Below, one piece after another: positions 15,001 to 21,494 of a stretch of DNA of 24,499 bases. Numbering within the stretch: the stretch's first letter is position 1; each line of letters starts with the position of its first letter. A model generated the notes under the pieces. That model was not told the DNA's origin. It searched no databases and was given only the letters and a program-made list of their open reading frames with translations. The translations under genes and the position numbers were made by a program. The stretch is from a virus, in the IMG/VR virus record IMGVR_UViG_3300025853_000626, positions 1 to 24,499 of that record. One strand, given 5' to 3'.

Positions 15001-15215
15001 CCGAGAGCATCAGCAGTTTGCAGCGCGCTTTTCGCCATTAAGCCAAAACCGGCGGCACCAGCAGCAGCACCCAGGGCGCCGACCATGCCGCCCAGGCTGC
15101 TTTTGATTTTGTCGACCGCTTTGCTGGCCTGGTTGAGATTGCCTTTCAGCGAGTTGATGGCTTTGGATGTCTGATCCTTGCCTTCAAATACGACCTTGAC
15201 GGTTTGGTTTGCCAC
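12030..15215 (-). CDS. Tail tape measure protein
   Basis: A 1061-residue protein and the longest gene here. The N-terminus (TVKVVFEGKDQTSKAINSLK) and the helical segment with TADALGKTSQKLGVTANELF are typical of tape measures. A hydrophobic stretch lies at about residues 273-331, charged coiled coils follow to about residue 650, and a Gly/Ala-rich hydrophobic part precedes GGQVSGPGGPTADRVPAMLS and the later motif VGEDGPELFIPN. It fixes tail length and is ejected with the DNA; at about 0.15 nm per residue the tail would be roughly 160 nm. The start is GTG, inside the frameshifted extension of the chaperone gene, as is usual for this gene pair. Confidence 0.95.
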   Translation of the reverse strand: MANQTVKVVFEGKDQTSKAINSLKGNLNQASKAVDKIKSSLGGMVGALGAAAGAAGFGLMAKSALQTADALGKTSQKLGVTANELFKFQTQAELAGISSDTANMALQRFTRRTAEAAIGTGEAKAALEELRINADALQRLPLSERMKVLADAFSEVESPADRLRLAFKLFDSEGAAMVNMLEGGRESLEETEARMRELGISINSRSAPAVENFNDAVFLLQRRVQAAMIDGLGEAAPIMEDVADKLAEMAVPLTGKLLKGFQWLLSNLDTIVRGFKLLIGALVVMKVVQFTTAILALVKALGGMAAILAALGGPISLLIAGIGALGAVIYNFRSEIMDSVEALDDYLGITDKVSKAVKFFKGILGDSEDQVEDNTDTTKKATKETDNFEEAVDNLKDTVKKTDPPLEGFGDTVDYVATEEIRAAARTDAFREALEDLREAARTGADDIEDFQKEIADFEKTVNNTEATTEDFNDALLNSIEELTGVTFEARAVRQEIDKVKASIEALSKAEGDFNDELAVLNRRLEELGGELVEATKAADGLTASQREVLDEVKKTENEIKDLNDKLDDLGALYKKGAISAREYQIATEKVNAEIKELNQVDLTEFERSVRDAFDGSPVEEFFDKLDQVTGGTGALDSLVKDLIGAGGVKSAIANCFGTQPVTNFEEAVKRLFTGSGSALGGFGAALGNLTSALGGFFSGALSSFSSFKDAVVRTLEQIAAAAIASVGISFLKNLIPGLRDGGMVEGFATGGQVSGPGGPTADRVPAMLSDGEYVIRASSVNKFGARFFDALNSGRLPKFALGGLFGGTYGSIDNFDWFELFRTYFGPGDVSGTEGLAQGIANVVNTILTTMETFQTAIKTGVVDAINAVTDEMFGGKPTFTVDYVTEIIDKILEGVFDKLVEIAEKGDVINTEGNIFDRIREAIFKGGTFPNVSDEFSGPFQQSMIDELIRMISNLQSMILNFSFDDHVKKLFNRADGVVGGSLYLQGRQFGGPLERGQASMVGEDGPELFIPNRGGTVSPIKGNSVDLQQSINDMKDEIVMLRRQLSRELSGRRPAGVR

Positions 15216-15734
15216 TCATCGCCTCGCTGCGCTGCTTCTGATATTCCTCATCTTGTATCGTGAAGAATAACGACCATTCGATAAACTCATCGACGGACAT
15301 TTCGGCCTCGAGCTGGGATACGGTCATCCCCAGCTTTTCAGCCAGCACAAACCGGAATCGCCTGTCCGCCGACTCTCTTAGTTTTTTTCGAGCGCCTCGG
15401 CATCACCCGACATCACCTGATTGGCAATGCGCGCGACGACGTTGGCGTCGACATCATTCCGCAGCGCGTTCTTATCCTCAATCGTGAACAGCTTATCGCC
15501 ATTCTCGTCGACCAGCTTCATGATCAGTAGCTCGGCCAGGGTATCAGCGGCGGATTGCTTTTCCGTTAAATACTGCAAGCGACCTTGGTCCTTTAGAGTA
15601 AAGGGCGACGAATAAGCCACCATCGGCCCATCCTCGTCGCCCCACTCCTCGATCTCGATTCGCTTTAACGGCTTTGCCTTGAAATGCTCAGTCGCTCGCT
15701 GGATGGCGCGCGACTTCGATTTCTCGGCGGCCAT
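15184..15734 (-). CDS. Tail assembly chaperone, -1 frameshift product
   Basis: A 183-residue product equivalent to lambda gpGT. The first 117 or so residues are the short chaperone. The ribosome then slips back one base at A_AAA_AAC (15387-15381) and reads LRESADRRFRFVLAEK, LGMTVSQLEAEMS and VDEFIEWSLFFTIQDEEY to a TGA at 15186-15184. The LGMTVSQLEAEMS part is the typical conserved motif of gpT-type extensions, so the reading is more than chance. The extension overlaps the start of the tape measure gene. In lambda the long form binds the tape measure while the short form binds tail tube subunits; the ratio is set by the slip rate. Confidence 0.88.
15378..15734 (-). CDS. Tail assembly chaperone, short form
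   Basis: A 118-residue protein, the equivalent of lambda gpG. It begins MAAEKSKSRAIQRATEHFKA and has a beta-rich middle followed by helices (KQSAADTLAELLIMKLVDEN). The zero-frame stop TAA comes immediately after the slippery AAC codon. Its ATG overlaps the tail tube stop as TGATG. Its place between the tail tube and tape measure genes is the standard order in siphoviruses. Confidence 0.9.
   Translation of the reverse strand: MAAEKSKSRAIQRATEHFKAKPLKRIEIEEWGDEDGPMVAYSSPFTLKDQGRLQYLTEKQSAADTLAELLIMKLVDENGDKLFTIEDKNALRNDVDANVVARIANQVMSGDAEALEKN
15381..15387 (-). other. Programmed -1 ribosomal frameshift site
   Basis: On the coding strand the zero-frame codons are GAA AAA AAC TAA, which contain the heptamer A_AAA_AAC. 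Both tRNAs can re-pair after a one-base backward slip. A Shine-Dalgarno-like GAGG lies six bases upstream of the A-run, similar in arrangement to known stimulators. The zero-frame stop directly after the site may add a pause. I could not confirm a downstream hairpin by eye. Confidence 0.88.
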
Positions 15735-17277: not shown

Positions 17278-17301
17278 AGAAAAGGCGCCCCGAAGGGCGC
17301 C
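17278..17301 (-). terminator. Intrinsic terminator or attenuator after the capsid gene
   Basis: On the minus strand GGCGCCC and GGGCGCC form a seven-base-pair stem with a short TTCG loop, followed by TTTTCTT. It lies in the 45-base gap after the capsid stop codon, one of the few gaps in the late operon. Since tail genes follow without an obvious promoter, it probably works as a partial terminator that favours capsid mRNA, or is bypassed by antitermination. Confidence 0.8.
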
Positions 17302-17311
17302 ACTTTGACTA

Positions 17312-18574
17312 TCAAGTCGTGATGTCAAGAATCGCGGCAAACGATTCTGCGTGTCGGACTGCAACATCGATATCCTGGTACATAGCGATTCGAGTCGCGC
17401 CGGTAGCCGATCCAGTGTAGGGATCAACCAGCACATCGAGACCGCCGAACATACCGATCATCAAGTCGTTGAAGTTTCCGAAGATTACAGCCGAACAAAC
17501 GCCGGAGCTGGTTCCCTTGGTCAAGTCCGAAGGAACAAGCGTCGAGCTTGCTACGTTGTAACCCAACAGAGTGTTGCTATCGTTGAGGATGAAATTGCCC
17601 TCGACGCCGCTCGCCTGGCGCGGAGTCTGACGCATAGCACCGACCACTTTCGGGTTAGTGAGATATGCCAGATTACCAGCCAGCGCGTTGTCGATTGCGA
17701 CTTCCTTCTCAAGGTCTACCAGCTTGGCGTAAGTAACTGCGCCGCCGTTGGTGCCCATAGCAACAGAACCGATGCCGCTGGTCTGAGTGATGCCGGTCGG
17801 CTCATTAGAACCGCCGCCCTCGATTGCCACTTCGTCGATCTTGGCCGCGAACTGGCGGGTCAGATCGTCGCGGATAACCTGCTCGACGCTAGGATCAGAC
17901 TGCATAGACAGCTTGCGAGAGATGTCTACATACTGAACCAGAGTCTTAGGTGACATCGTTACCTGACGGAACGTAGGCGCGCCCTCTGCACCAGGTGCAG
18001 TGTTCTCGGCAACAAAGCCGACAGACGTTTTCGCGTTCAGCGCGGGAATGGCGACATCGCCCTTCAGTCCTTGCATCATGCGAGCGCCCAGGCTTGAGAT
18101 CACCAGGTTCGCGCGCAGCGCGTCGATGAACTCGCCGCCCAGATGGTCGGTAGGCTTCAAAAAGCCGCCAGCGGTGTTAGTGCCGACAGTCAGATCGCGC
18201 TTGAAGATGCTGGACGGAACGTAAAAGCCGCGAGGCTCTTTGCCGTAGCGCTTGGCAAGCTCTTCAGATACTTCGCGCTCGAAGCCGTCAAAGCGGCCAG
18301 ATTGCGCGGAGCGGATAGCGTTGATCAGGCTATATTGGCGCTCTTCTTTTGGCGTTAGCTCAACGTCAGCGACGTCCAGGGGCTTGTCGGCAATCTTGTC
18401 CAACAATGCGCCTCGGAACTGCGCTAATGTCATGCCCTGGCGAATAGCGTCGTCAGCGAATGATCGCTGATTGTGCTTGGCGGCCAGGCCGAGCATTTCA
18501 TTTACTTCCTTGGATCGTTCGGCAGCGGCTTCCGCGCGTACCTGATCCAAATCGATATGGTTTTCCTGTTCCAT
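17312..18574 (-). CDS. Major capsid protein from an internal start
   Basis: Inside the fusion frame, codon 475 is an ATG (MEQENHIDLDQVRAEAAAER) preceded at eight bases by AAAGGAGGTT, the best ribosome binding site in the window. Starting here gives a 420-residue major capsid precursor with its delta domain and HK97 fold, close to the usual length for an HK97-type capsid gene. Free capsid protein is needed in hundreds of copies and protease in a few, so two products from one frame are sensible: a small amount of fusion carrying the protease into the prohead, and a large amount of capsid. The capsid amino-acid motifs are listed with the fusion. Confidence 0.8.
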   Translation of the reverse strand: MEQENHIDLDQVRAEAAAERSKEVNEMLGLAAKHNQRSFADDAIRQGMTLAQFRGALLDKIADKPLDVADVELTPKEERQYSLINAIRSAQSGRFDGFEREVSEELAKRYGKEPRGFYVPSSIFKRDLTVGTNTAGGFLKPTDHLGGEFIDALRANLVISSLGARMMQGLKGDVAIPALNAKTSVGFVAENTAPGAEGAPTFRQVTMSPKTLVQYVDISRKLSMQSDPSVEQVIRDDLTRQFAAKIDEVAIEGGGSNEPTGITQTSGIGSVAMGTNGGAVTYAKLVDLEKEVAIDNALAGNLAYLTNPKVVGAMRQTPRQASGVEGNFILNDSNTLLGYNVASSTLVPSDLTKGTSSGVCSAVIFGNFNDLMIGMFGGLDVLVDPYTGSATGATRIAMYQDIDVAVRHAESFAAILDITT

Positions 18575-19996
18575 GATAGGAACCTCCTTTTCGATGGGTT
18601 TAATGGTAGCGGTGTCGGATACCTCGACCGAACGCCCCACACCGACGGACGGGTCGGCGGGAAGTGAAACGATAGAGACCTCCATGATTTCGGCGTCAAT
18701 TACTCGAAACAGACCTTGATCGTCTTTGTCTCTTTCCATCTTCCGAACTTTATAGCCGATTGAGACATTCGAGCGAATGCCGTCGACTACATCCTGATAA
18801 ACCTCGCTGGCGAGTGTGCCCCTTCCGAAGCGCACCGTCGCTCGGAGACGCCGAGCCGAGCCATCCAGGTTTACGGATTCGATCACCCCGATCTGTCGTT
18901 CGGGGTCGTGATCCAGCAGCAGCGGCGCATGGCCGGATCGCAAAAACTTTAAGTCGAGCGTCTGCTCGGTGTGAACGATCATCTCGCGACCGAATGATCG
19001 CTCGACTTCCAGCTCACTCGATACTGACATCTCGACGCGCCGATCATCTTTTTCCTCGATCTCGGCGTGTTCCATCCGATGGAATACCTCGGATTTGGAG
19101 AGTCGTTCCTCATCATAATCGCCGCCAGATTCCTCGATCTCGGGCTCCTCTTCGGGCTCTTCGACCATTGGCTTCGCGAATGTGATGATGATTTCGTCAT
19201 CGGTTTCGACGATTTCTTTTATATGTCGCTGTTCCACTGCGGCATCCTCTGATTTTTGCATCTCGCCAGTATACTCCGCCTTTTCGTTTTCATCATCAGA
19301 TGCCAGCGGATGCCCCGCCGGGAAAAGGTCGGTATCGTGTTTTCCGCCCTGGAATCGGTCATTCTTCATCGCAAACAAAAACGAATTTACCCTGGCATAT
19401 CCCCACTGCTCCGGGGAGCCGACGCCAGGGCGCACCGATTCCGGGTTTGTCTTATAGGCGCCAATGCCGCGCTCCATTACTTCGCGCAGCATCCCGAGCG
19501 TCACCCGCCGCAGCGGATCGTCGCCCACCTCCTCGTTGTGTTCGTCGCGCTTATTCTCGAGCGCGGCCTCGACCTGATCGGAAAGCTGGCGCTCTTCCTT
19601 TTTGCCTTCCAGCTTTTTGATCAGCTCGAGGATCGCATCCTTCATGCCTTGCTCGCCGAGCGTACCGATGACGCCCCATTTCATCTGCGCCACTACTCCG
19701 GCGACGTTGCTTTTGTTCGGCTCTTCATCTGATAGATGGGCGCCATCCTCAAAATGACGCGCTGCCCAGGCTTCCCGCTCTTTGATCCAATCCAGAACCG
19801 AACCGGCTTCATCGCCATCCCGCGCGCGTCCCCATAACCGGAAAGCGTCATTGCCCCGGACATTCCCGCCCAGCGCCCAAATCTCGGAGTTGAATTCCTT
19901 TATGTTTTCCGCAAATTCACGGTCGAATTGCGGATATTCGGAATTCCGAAGCGATATCTTCAGATCGTCGCCCTGCTTTGGAAAGTCAGTCGCCAT
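17312..19996 (-). CDS. Prohead protease-major capsid fusion protein
   Basis: An 894-residue frame with three parts. Residues 1-245 are an unusual N-terminal region with FNSEIWALGGNVRGNDAFRL and GYARVNSFLFAMKNDRF, then a very acidic linker (EEPEEEPEIEES). Residues 320-455 are an S78/HK97-type prohead protease: HAPLLLDHDPERQIGV with His363, RSNVSIGYKV with Ser412, and AEIMEVSIVSLPAD. Residues 475-894 are an HK97-fold major capsid protein with a helical scaffolding-like delta region (about 475-590), the TNTAGGFLKPTDHLGGE start of the mature shell and the VDISRKLSMQS motif. In most siphoviruses protease and capsid are separate genes. The frame starts 11 bases before the portal gene ends. A strong internal start for the capsid part is described separately. 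Confidence 0.9.
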   Translation of the reverse strand: MATDFPKQGDDLKISLRNSEYPQFDREFAENIKEFNSEIWALGGNVRGNDAFRLWGRARDGDEAGSVLDWIKEREAWAARHFEDGAHLSDEEPNKSNVAGVVAQMKWGVIGTLGEQGMKDAILELIKKLEGKKEERQLSDQVEAALENKRDEHNEEVGDDPLRRVTLGMLREVMERGIGAYKTNPESVRPGVGSPEQWGYARVNSFLFAMKNDRFQGGKHDTDLFPAGHPLASDDENEKAEYTGEMQKSEDAAVEQRHIKEIVETDDEIIITFAKPMVEEPEEEPEIEESGGDYDEERLSKSEVFHRMEHAEIEEKDDRRVEMSVSSELEVERSFGREMIVHTEQTLDLKFLRSGHAPLLLDHDPERQIGVIESVNLDGSARRLRATVRFGRGTLASEVYQDVVDGIRSNVSIGYKVRKMERDKDDQGLFRVIDAEIMEVSIVSLPADPSVGVGRSVEVSDTATIKPIEKEVPIMEQENHIDLDQVRAEAAAERSKEVNEMLGLAAKHNQRSFADDAIRQGMTLAQFRGALLDKIADKPLDVADVELTPKEERQYSLINAIRSAQSGRFDGFEREVSEELAKRYGKEPRGFYVPSSIFKRDLTVGTNTAGGFLKPTDHLGGEFIDALRANLVISSLGARMMQGLKGDVAIPALNAKTSVGFVAENTAPGAEGAPTFRQVTMSPKTLVQYVDISRKLSMQSDPSVEQVIRDDLTRQFAAKIDEVAIEGGGSNEPTGITQTSGIGSVAMGTNGGAVTYAKLVDLEKEVAIDNALAGNLAYLTNPKVVGAMRQTPRQASGVEGNFILNDSNTLLGYNVASSTLVPSDLTKGTSSGVCSAVIFGNFNDLMIGMFGGLDVLVDPYTGSATGATRIAMYQDIDVAVRHAESFAAILDITT
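18581..18590 (-). promoter_or_regulatory. Strong internal ribosome binding site for the capsid protein
   Basis: The coding strand reads AAAGGAGGTT, an almost perfect match to the anti-Shine-Dalgarno sequence, eight bases before an in-frame ATG. It encodes Lys-Glu-Val inside the fusion. Confidence 0.8.
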
Positions 19997-21494
19997 CGGA
20001 TTCCTCGGTCATCGCGTCGAATGATTCGCCGGTCATCAGATTGATTTTGCCGGGACCGTAGGGCGATTGTCCGCCGCCGAACGGCTCGAATGCCAGCTTG
20101 AGGCCGAACTGCTCGGCCAGCGCCTTATCACGCGCCACCTGGGCGAATACTTCCTCGACATCGCGCCCGTATACGTTAGCGACATCCTGGAGCGATATCA
20201 GGCCGTTTTGCAGCGCGACGACGTGAGCATTGATCTCCTTCTGGGGATCGACCCACTGGAAGCCGCGCGGTCGGAACTGCGACGCGCTCGCGAACTTGTC
20301 GAACTTGTCGATGGGCAGATTGACCGTGCCAATCGTGAACGCATTGATCAGCCAGCGCTCATAAACCGGCATGACGAAATGCGAAATCATATAGCTCTGG
20401 ATCATCTTGTAGAAATCACGATCCTCGATGCTGCCCTGGCGGATGCTCGAGTAGCTGGTTTGCGTCAGGTCATTAGCCAGCGAGTGATAGGAAACGCCGA
20501 GCCCGGACGCGATGCCGCGCAGGATCGATTTCTCGAAATCACCGAACGCGCTAGTCGGATGCGACGGATCCCAGGGTTGGAATTCGACATCCCTCGGGAG
20601 CTGGAAGAATGTGCCAGGCTCCGCATCAGTCAGCGGAACAATGCCATCCTCGAGATCGTCGCCCATAAATCCATCGCCGGATCGGGAAACGAAAAAGCCC
20701 ATTTTGCTCGCAGCCGTCCTGGCTGCAACCAGCTCCGCCTCGCGATAACCGTGCAGCATCTTCAGCGATGTCAGCGCGGTCGACATCCAGGGAACCCCGC
20801 GCGTTTGCTGGGCTCGGTCTGGCATATACAAGTGCAAGATACTCTCGGCCTCGACTCGCTGAGTGCGCCGATCATATTGGTGGAATTGGTAGTCGCCGGG
20901 ATGCTCGGTGAGCATGTGGTAAGCGACCGGGCGCCGGTATTGATCGAACTCGACGCCCATCCTGATTTCGTTGCCGTTCGGGGCGCGCTCGTTCTTTTCC
21001 TCATCGATCAGATCGGGCTCTAAAAACTCGAGCGCAAATCGGTCCTGGTTGCCGTCATAGTTGACAAACCTGACCAGCGCCTCGCCATCGCGAGCCATAG
21101 ATTCGGCGACCATTGCCTGGGCATCAGTAAATGACAGGCGCCCGTCGACCGTGCAATTCCCGACTCTGCTCCAGCGGGACCATTCCTGCTCGATGATCGA
21201 GTTGCCGATCTGGTCCAGGCTGCCGTCGACATTGGTGGCCTTCACCTGGAGCGACGCACCGCGCTCTCCGACGACGTTAGTTTTGACCAGGTGAAGATAT
21301 CGGCGAGCGTATTCGTTGTTCCTGGCAAGCTCTCGGCAGCGATTGCGGAGCGTTTTCAGTGAATAGCGCAGCTCGGAATCCGCCGAGCGCTGCGATGTCA
21401 CAAAATCAGAAAACAGCCGCCCGGTGCCAGCGCCATCAAATCCGCGCTTTTTGACCGGCTTCGGCTTCCTGCGAAGAAAGTCGAACATTCCCAT
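19986..21494 (-). CDS. Portal protein (lambda gpB family)
   Basis: A 502-residue protein of the Phage_portal_2 family, which forms the twelve-membered ring at the packaging vertex. The N-terminus is basic (FLRRKPKPVKKRG). Family patterns include LRNRCRELARNNEYARRY, a RGVPWMSTAL helix region, and the late motif RPRGFQWVDPQKEINAHV. The long form of the N-terminus was chosen because the ATG overlaps the preceding stop as TGATG; an ATG two codons later is also possible. The C-terminus overlaps the fusion gene by 11 bases. Length and order (after terminase, before protease) are as in lambda-like head clusters. Confidence 0.93.
   Translation of the reverse strand: MGMFDFLRRKPKPVKKRGFDGAGTGRLFSDFVTSQRSADSELRYSLKTLRNRCRELARNNEYARRYLHLVKTNVVGERGASLQVKATNVDGSLDQIGNSIIEQEWSRWSRVGNCTVDGRLSFTDAQAMVAESMARDGEALVRFVNYDGNQDRFALEFLEPDLIDEEKNERAPNGNEIRMGVEFDQYRRPVAYHMLTEHPGDYQFHQYDRRTQRVEAESILHLYMPDRAQQTRGVPWMSTALTSLKMLHGYREAELVAARTAASKMGFFVSRSGDGFMGDDLEDGIVPLTDAEPGTFFQLPRDVEFQPWDPSHPTSAFGDFEKSILRGIASGLGVSYHSLANDLTQTSYSSIRQGSIEDRDFYKMIQSYMISHFVMPVYERWLINAFTIGTVNLPIDKFDKFASASQFRPRGFQWVDPQKEINAHVVALQNGLISLQDVANVYGRDVEEVFAQVARDKALAEQFGLKLAFEPFGGGQSPYGPGKINLMTGESFDAMTEESDGD

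Follow-up and report, generated by a model that had tools for sequence, protein, structure and literature searches.

The window analysed in this study is a stretch of viral DNA of 24,499 nucleotides. On its minus strand, a single reading frame of 894 codons is open throughout from 19996 to 17312 and, as the earlier note had stated, carries both a protease and an HK97-type capsid without interruption, each domain scoring above its Pfam cut-off. The features of the locus, with the evidence for each in brackets, are given below in the direction of transcription, with SD standing for Shine-Dalgarno sequence.

19986..20013, minus strand: upstream start, ATG at 19996 with the SD-like GAGG (-5.9) and an 11-nt overlap with the 3' end of the portal gene (sequence, SD energy)
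17312..19996, minus strand: fused frame of 894 aa, comprising N-terminal module, S78 protease, delta-like region and HK97 capsid (open-frame listing, Pfam, PHROG)
19277..19996, minus strand: conserved all-helical module with a DUF5824-like C-terminal half, residues 1-240 (alignment, profile scan, predicted structure)
19055..19276, minus strand: acidic linker, variable in length, residues 241-314 (alignment of relatives)
18641..19054, minus strand: S78 prohead protease, residues 315-452 (Pfam, alignment, predicted model)
18908-18910, minus strand: codon of protease His363 (invariant in 28/28)
18761-18763, minus strand: codon of protease Ser412 (invariant in 28/28)
18551..18640, minus strand: fast-evolving, predicted-disordered linker with the internal start, residues 453-482 (pLDDT 31-39, alignments)
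18583..18590, minus strand: internal SD, AAAGGAGG (sequence, duplex energy; no synonymous change in AAG GAG among 21 close relatives)
18572..18574, minus strand: internal ATG, codon 475 (start codon in 79/79 lineages; ATG and SD at one column in 58/78)
17312..18574, minus strand: putative nested capsid-precursor gene of 420 aa, delta-like region and capsid (sequence, SD energy, model)
18137..18196, minus strand: predicted-disordered joint, residues 601-620, likely region of maturation cleavage (model; the deposited R4C virion chain has its first residue at this place in the alignment)
17284..17301, minus strand: GC-rich, terminator-like hairpin with a UUCG loop and a T run, directly after the capsid stop (hairpin search)

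In the 894-aa product, Pfam placed Peptidase_S78 at residues 354-451 (PF04586, 45 bits against a gathering cut-off of 21) and Phage_capsid at residues 614-888 (PF05065, 124.6 against 24.2 bits). The capsid was also recognised by TIGR01554 (131 against 27.5), and TIGR01543 scored the protease below its cut-off (40.8 against 59). The protease residues named in the earlier note, His363 and Ser412, were unchanged in 28 of 28 aligned relatives, as was Glu439. Residues 315-891 aligned with positions 22-623 of the 626 in PHROG 617, a protease/MCP fusion profile (E 1.8e-136), so the fusion itself is a member of a known family. The NCBIfam fusion model NF045541 gave 137 bits against the 525 required, with the match confined to residues 316-546. 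The same protease-capsid fusion is shared by 215 homologous frames from IMG/VR and phage records. No split between protease and capsid was found in the closed frames of the window lineage, and the four split cases (L164, L166, L167 and L169) involve distant capsids. Comparison of these sequences demonstrates that the fused frame has also been kept open.

In the predicted model of residues 315-894, the protease is folded and is followed by a disordered linker (residues 455-483, with Met475), a delta-like region of helices, another disordered segment (residues 601-620) and an HK97 fold. The internal start is therefore predicted to lie in a disordered linker between two folded parts. The capsid model matched the capsid of the fused relative R4C (8gta) with a TM-score of 0.69, normalised by target length.

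Codon 475 is an ATG at 18574, as the earlier note had reported. Its SD, at -12.8 kcal/mol, ranked first among the 735 ATGs on both strands, which upholds the description of this site as the best ribosome binding site in the window; the duplex energies were computed against a standard anti-SD, which is assumed and may not be the 16S tail of the host. Second among gene starts was 16126, where the major tail protein begins, at -11.8, a value shared with 1002. The spacing of eight bases given in the earlier note is right for GGAGG, which ends 8 bases before the ATG, and wrong for the whole of AAAGGAGGTT, for which the distance is 6 bases. When the window alone was recoded with synonymous codons, an equally strong SD arose in 32% of draws, so this genome by itself offers weak evidence, and it is the comparison that carries the case. 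A GTTCC/GGAAC stem at the internal start of the window was missing in more distant relatives, and a conserved RNA hairpin at this site was thus rejected.

Elsewhere in the window, the tail assembly chaperone gene (15185-15734, minus strand) ends in GAAAAAAACTAA, a slippery site (A-AAA-AAC). Its -1 frame is open for about 68 codons, up to the start of the tape measure gene, as in programmed frameshifting of the lambda G/GT type.

The fused homologues were examined for a conserved internal ATG and SD, a check that the earlier note had put forward and that came out in favour of the internal start. Redundancy in the boundary region was cut at 80% identity, which reduced the 215 fused frames to 79 lineages; these lineages are related, and the statistics that follow are given without correction for phylogeny. 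A start codon was present in the protease-capsid linker in 79 of 79 lineages (77 ATG and 2 GTG; S-CBS3, one of the two GTG lineages, also has a nearby ATG without an SD). A boundary start with an SD of -5.5 kcal/mol or lower was found in 64 of the 79, compared with 21.7% of windows of equal length taken from other parts of the same ORFs. When only the alignment column of codon 475 was considered, with no choice of the best site, ATG and SD occurred together in 58 of 78 lineages, against 11 for the runner-up column. Conserved methionines served as controls, and an SD preceded Met681 in 5/54 and Met420 in 0/52 sequences; for all other in-frame ATGs (n = 1150) the figure was 9.5%. The residue following the internal Met was mostly Ser, Glu or Thr. 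The cyanophages S-LBS1 and S-CBS3 have a boundary ATG without an SD, and the boundary SD is weak in several phages of enterobacteria, Xanthomonas and Burkholderia. Start and SD nevertheless persist to about 31-40% identity, though the linker is otherwise strongly diverged.

The SD core was observed in all three reading phases across the lineages (27, 23 and 14), being encoded for example as K-E-V (AAG GAG GTT) in the window and as Q-R-S-D (CAA AGG AGT GAT) in CRP-821. Synonymous recoding of the codons upstream of the start gave a mean SD of -4.4, compared with the observed -7.6. Among 21 close relatives, synonymous divergence was lowest over codons 466-482, and was zero in the SD codons AAG GAG. 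The occurrence of the SD in all three phases, together with the minimum of synonymous divergence over it, indicates that the start is selected as RNA and not as peptide. A constraint on the Lys-Glu-Val peptide was rejected as the cause of the SD, as the SD occurs in every phase and the encoded residues differ. A chance SD was likewise rejected, on the comparisons with recoded sequences, windows elsewhere, single columns and other ATGs. The internal capsid start at 18574, which the earlier note had proposed from one genome, is on this comparative evidence conserved across the whole fused family and, with its SD, preserved by selection at the nucleotide level.

One reading frame very probably gives both a long protease-bearing protein and a short shell protein. 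The sequence features expected of a nested in-frame pair of the lambda C/Nu3 type were all found, namely an internal start in the same frame with an SD, a common stop and conservation in homologues. The best reading, in which we have considerable confidence, is of two nested in-frame genes with a common stop, the short product being the bulk shell subunit and the long one co-assembling with it and bringing the protease. Ribosomes entering at 19996 would make the long protein, consisting of N-terminal module, prohead protease, delta-like scaffold and capsid, and ribosomes entering at 18574 would make the capsid precursor only, that is, the delta-like region and capsid. The short form would supply most of the shell, and the long form would join it through its own capsid part, carrying the protease and the N-terminal module into the procapsid, where the protease would cut the precursors near residues 601-620. 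We infer the relative amounts, the co-assembly, the cleavage near residues 601-620 and the role of the module. That the fusion would take the protease into the shell, as the earlier note suggested, fits the protein anatomy and the HK97 precedent.

R4C has an internal ATG with an SD of -9.5. Its deposited virion chain corresponds to residues 362-629 of a fused ORF of 629 residues, and starts about 173 residues past the internal ATG. A chain beginning at residue 362 is consistent with cleavage of the capsid precursor by the protease. As the mature N-terminus lies so far downstream of the internal start, the N-terminus of the virion protein cannot separate the long and short products. The R4C capsid contains 415 MCP copies (PMC10276861).

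Alternatively, only the 894-residue protein might be made, with autoproteolysis freeing the capsid subunits and the internal ATG idle. The open frame and an upstream start that is preceded by an SD and lies partly within the portal gene would suit this explanation, S78 proteases do cut such joints, and the cyanophage members have no SD at the ATG. However, it leaves the SD in three phases and the low synonymous divergence at the exact spot unexplained, and would make protease and N-terminal module roughly as numerous as the shell subunits; we regard it as improbable. It is less probable still that the bulk capsid comes from an extra transcript begun inside the gene, with the internal SD serving that shorter mRNA only. 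A weak promoter-like match does lie upstream of the internal start (18975-18946, minus strand), but such matches were of low quality and numbered 3 against 1.1 expected in shuffles, and a transcript of this kind would still use the internal start, altering its control only. The least probable explanation, that the ATG and SD are a disused remnant from an ancestor in which the two genes were separate, can point to relatives with module and protease that have a separate capsid gene (L164, L166, L167, L169 and the Salinibacter phages), but is at odds with the persistence of both elements at low identity in a strongly diverged linker and with the shifts of the SD between phases.

Under the preferred reading of two nested genes, the ratio of the products is a separate matter, and the claim of the earlier note that translation by itself sets the copy ratio finds no consistent support in the SD strengths. 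Most relatives have an SD at the upstream start of the fusion too, and among 57 module-bearing sequences that could be compared, the internal SD was the stronger in only 33 (mean -8.5 against -6.8). Conservation thus extends to the existence of the internal start but not to a uniform ratio based on SD strength. A terminator-like hairpin was found within 70 nt of the capsid stop in 99 of 144 relatives, compared with 2.2% of random windows; this hairpin, and processing, could also shape the amounts of the products.

The genes C and Nu3 of phage lambda are the classic nested in-frame head genes, with a protease-bearing long product and a shorter product from an internal start that share frame and stop. 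In lambda the inner product is a scaffold, whereas in the window it would be a capsid precursor, and the protease families differ. In HK97, the gp4 protease and the gp5 delta-capsid are encoded by two separate genes; the S78 protease, the delta-like helical region and the HK97 fold are common to both systems, but the window has them in one frame. Direct homologues with the same fused order are the fusions of PHROG 617/4523 and NF045541 (Roseobacter phage CRP-821, Vibrio phage VP882, Halomonas phage phiHAP-1 and R4C). The records examined annotate a single product, and most fusion relatives beyond the closest group are without the N-terminal module that it carries. Fusions of capsid and maturation protease have been described, and called unusual, in Arthrobacter phages of cluster AM/AU/AN; these are likened to the window by description, and the internal start is not mentioned in the part of that report consulted (PMC5513430). 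Fused protease-capsid genes are also described in PMC8601537. The open-licence PMC papers searched yielded no description of a conserved internal start for the capsid in protease-capsid fusions. The fusion and the principle of nested genes are already known, and the conserved internal start in this fused family appears to be unreported in that literature.

The earlier note had divided the protein into protease and capsid, which is correct as far as it goes, but overlooked a third part, as the first ~315 residues are not protease (module at 1-240, linker at 241-314). The module is 68-93% identical across 22 relatives, even at loci whose capsid is only 35-44% identical to that of the window, so the histories of module and capsid differ. 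The model predicted for it consists of helices only, at moderate confidence (mean pLDDT of 75). PF19141 (DUF5824) scored 26 bits against a gathering cut-off of 25 when residues 1-240 were scanned alone, through a match to profile positions 69-113 only, and 23.1 bits on the full-length protein. A structure comparison of the module with the PDB gave no match; among viral predicted structures, the matches were to XkdF-like and 'prohead protease' proteins. A scan of genome contigs gave no relatives.

Seventy-two frames with the module were found; 55 run on into protease and capsid, 11 leave the contig and 6 are arranged otherwise. Three of these six (L164, L166 and L167) are stand-alone S78 proteases by scan, and in two the module forms the C-terminus of a portal protein (L159:3540-5711 and L163:1992-4109, in phages with Mu F-like genes). 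In L169 the next gene after the module frame is a capsid, and a separate capsid gene also lies downstream of the module protein in L164, L166 and L167. In Salinibacter phages, of which 183 records match the module, it is carried by a protein of 846 residues whose S78 match falls below threshold, and the capsid has a gene of its own after it; in Salinibacter phage 15_1 (L061:7569-11568) this weakly S78-like protein is annotated as hypothetical. Different N-terminal regions of ~250-330 residues replace the module upstream of the protease in the fusions L029, L031, L034, L039 and L062, so this position varies between phages. In Roseobacter phage CRP-823 (L059:2653-5581), a TTT run has one T more than in CRP-821, and this separates the N-terminal part from the protease-capsid part, through either a sequencing error or a real frameshift.

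The sharing of the module with portals and stand-alone proteases appears to be unreported in the open-licence PMC papers searched. The module is widely shared, and the proteins that carry it (portal, protease or fusion) suggest that it acts inside the head at low copy. A tentative extension is that the long form serves as a vehicle for delivery. The mobile module, which in unrelated head modules also occurs on stand-alone proteases and on portal C-termini, would then be a functional passenger of the head interior, brought in at low copy by the protease-capsid product, and the internal start would give passenger-free shell subunits.

If the frame is read from both starts, this would be a simple way for phages with a fused protease and capsid to avoid making one protease per shell subunit. 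It would apply to a large family that is annotated with a single 'major capsid protein', and predicts that capsid starts and copy numbers are mis-annotated in the records of the fused family.
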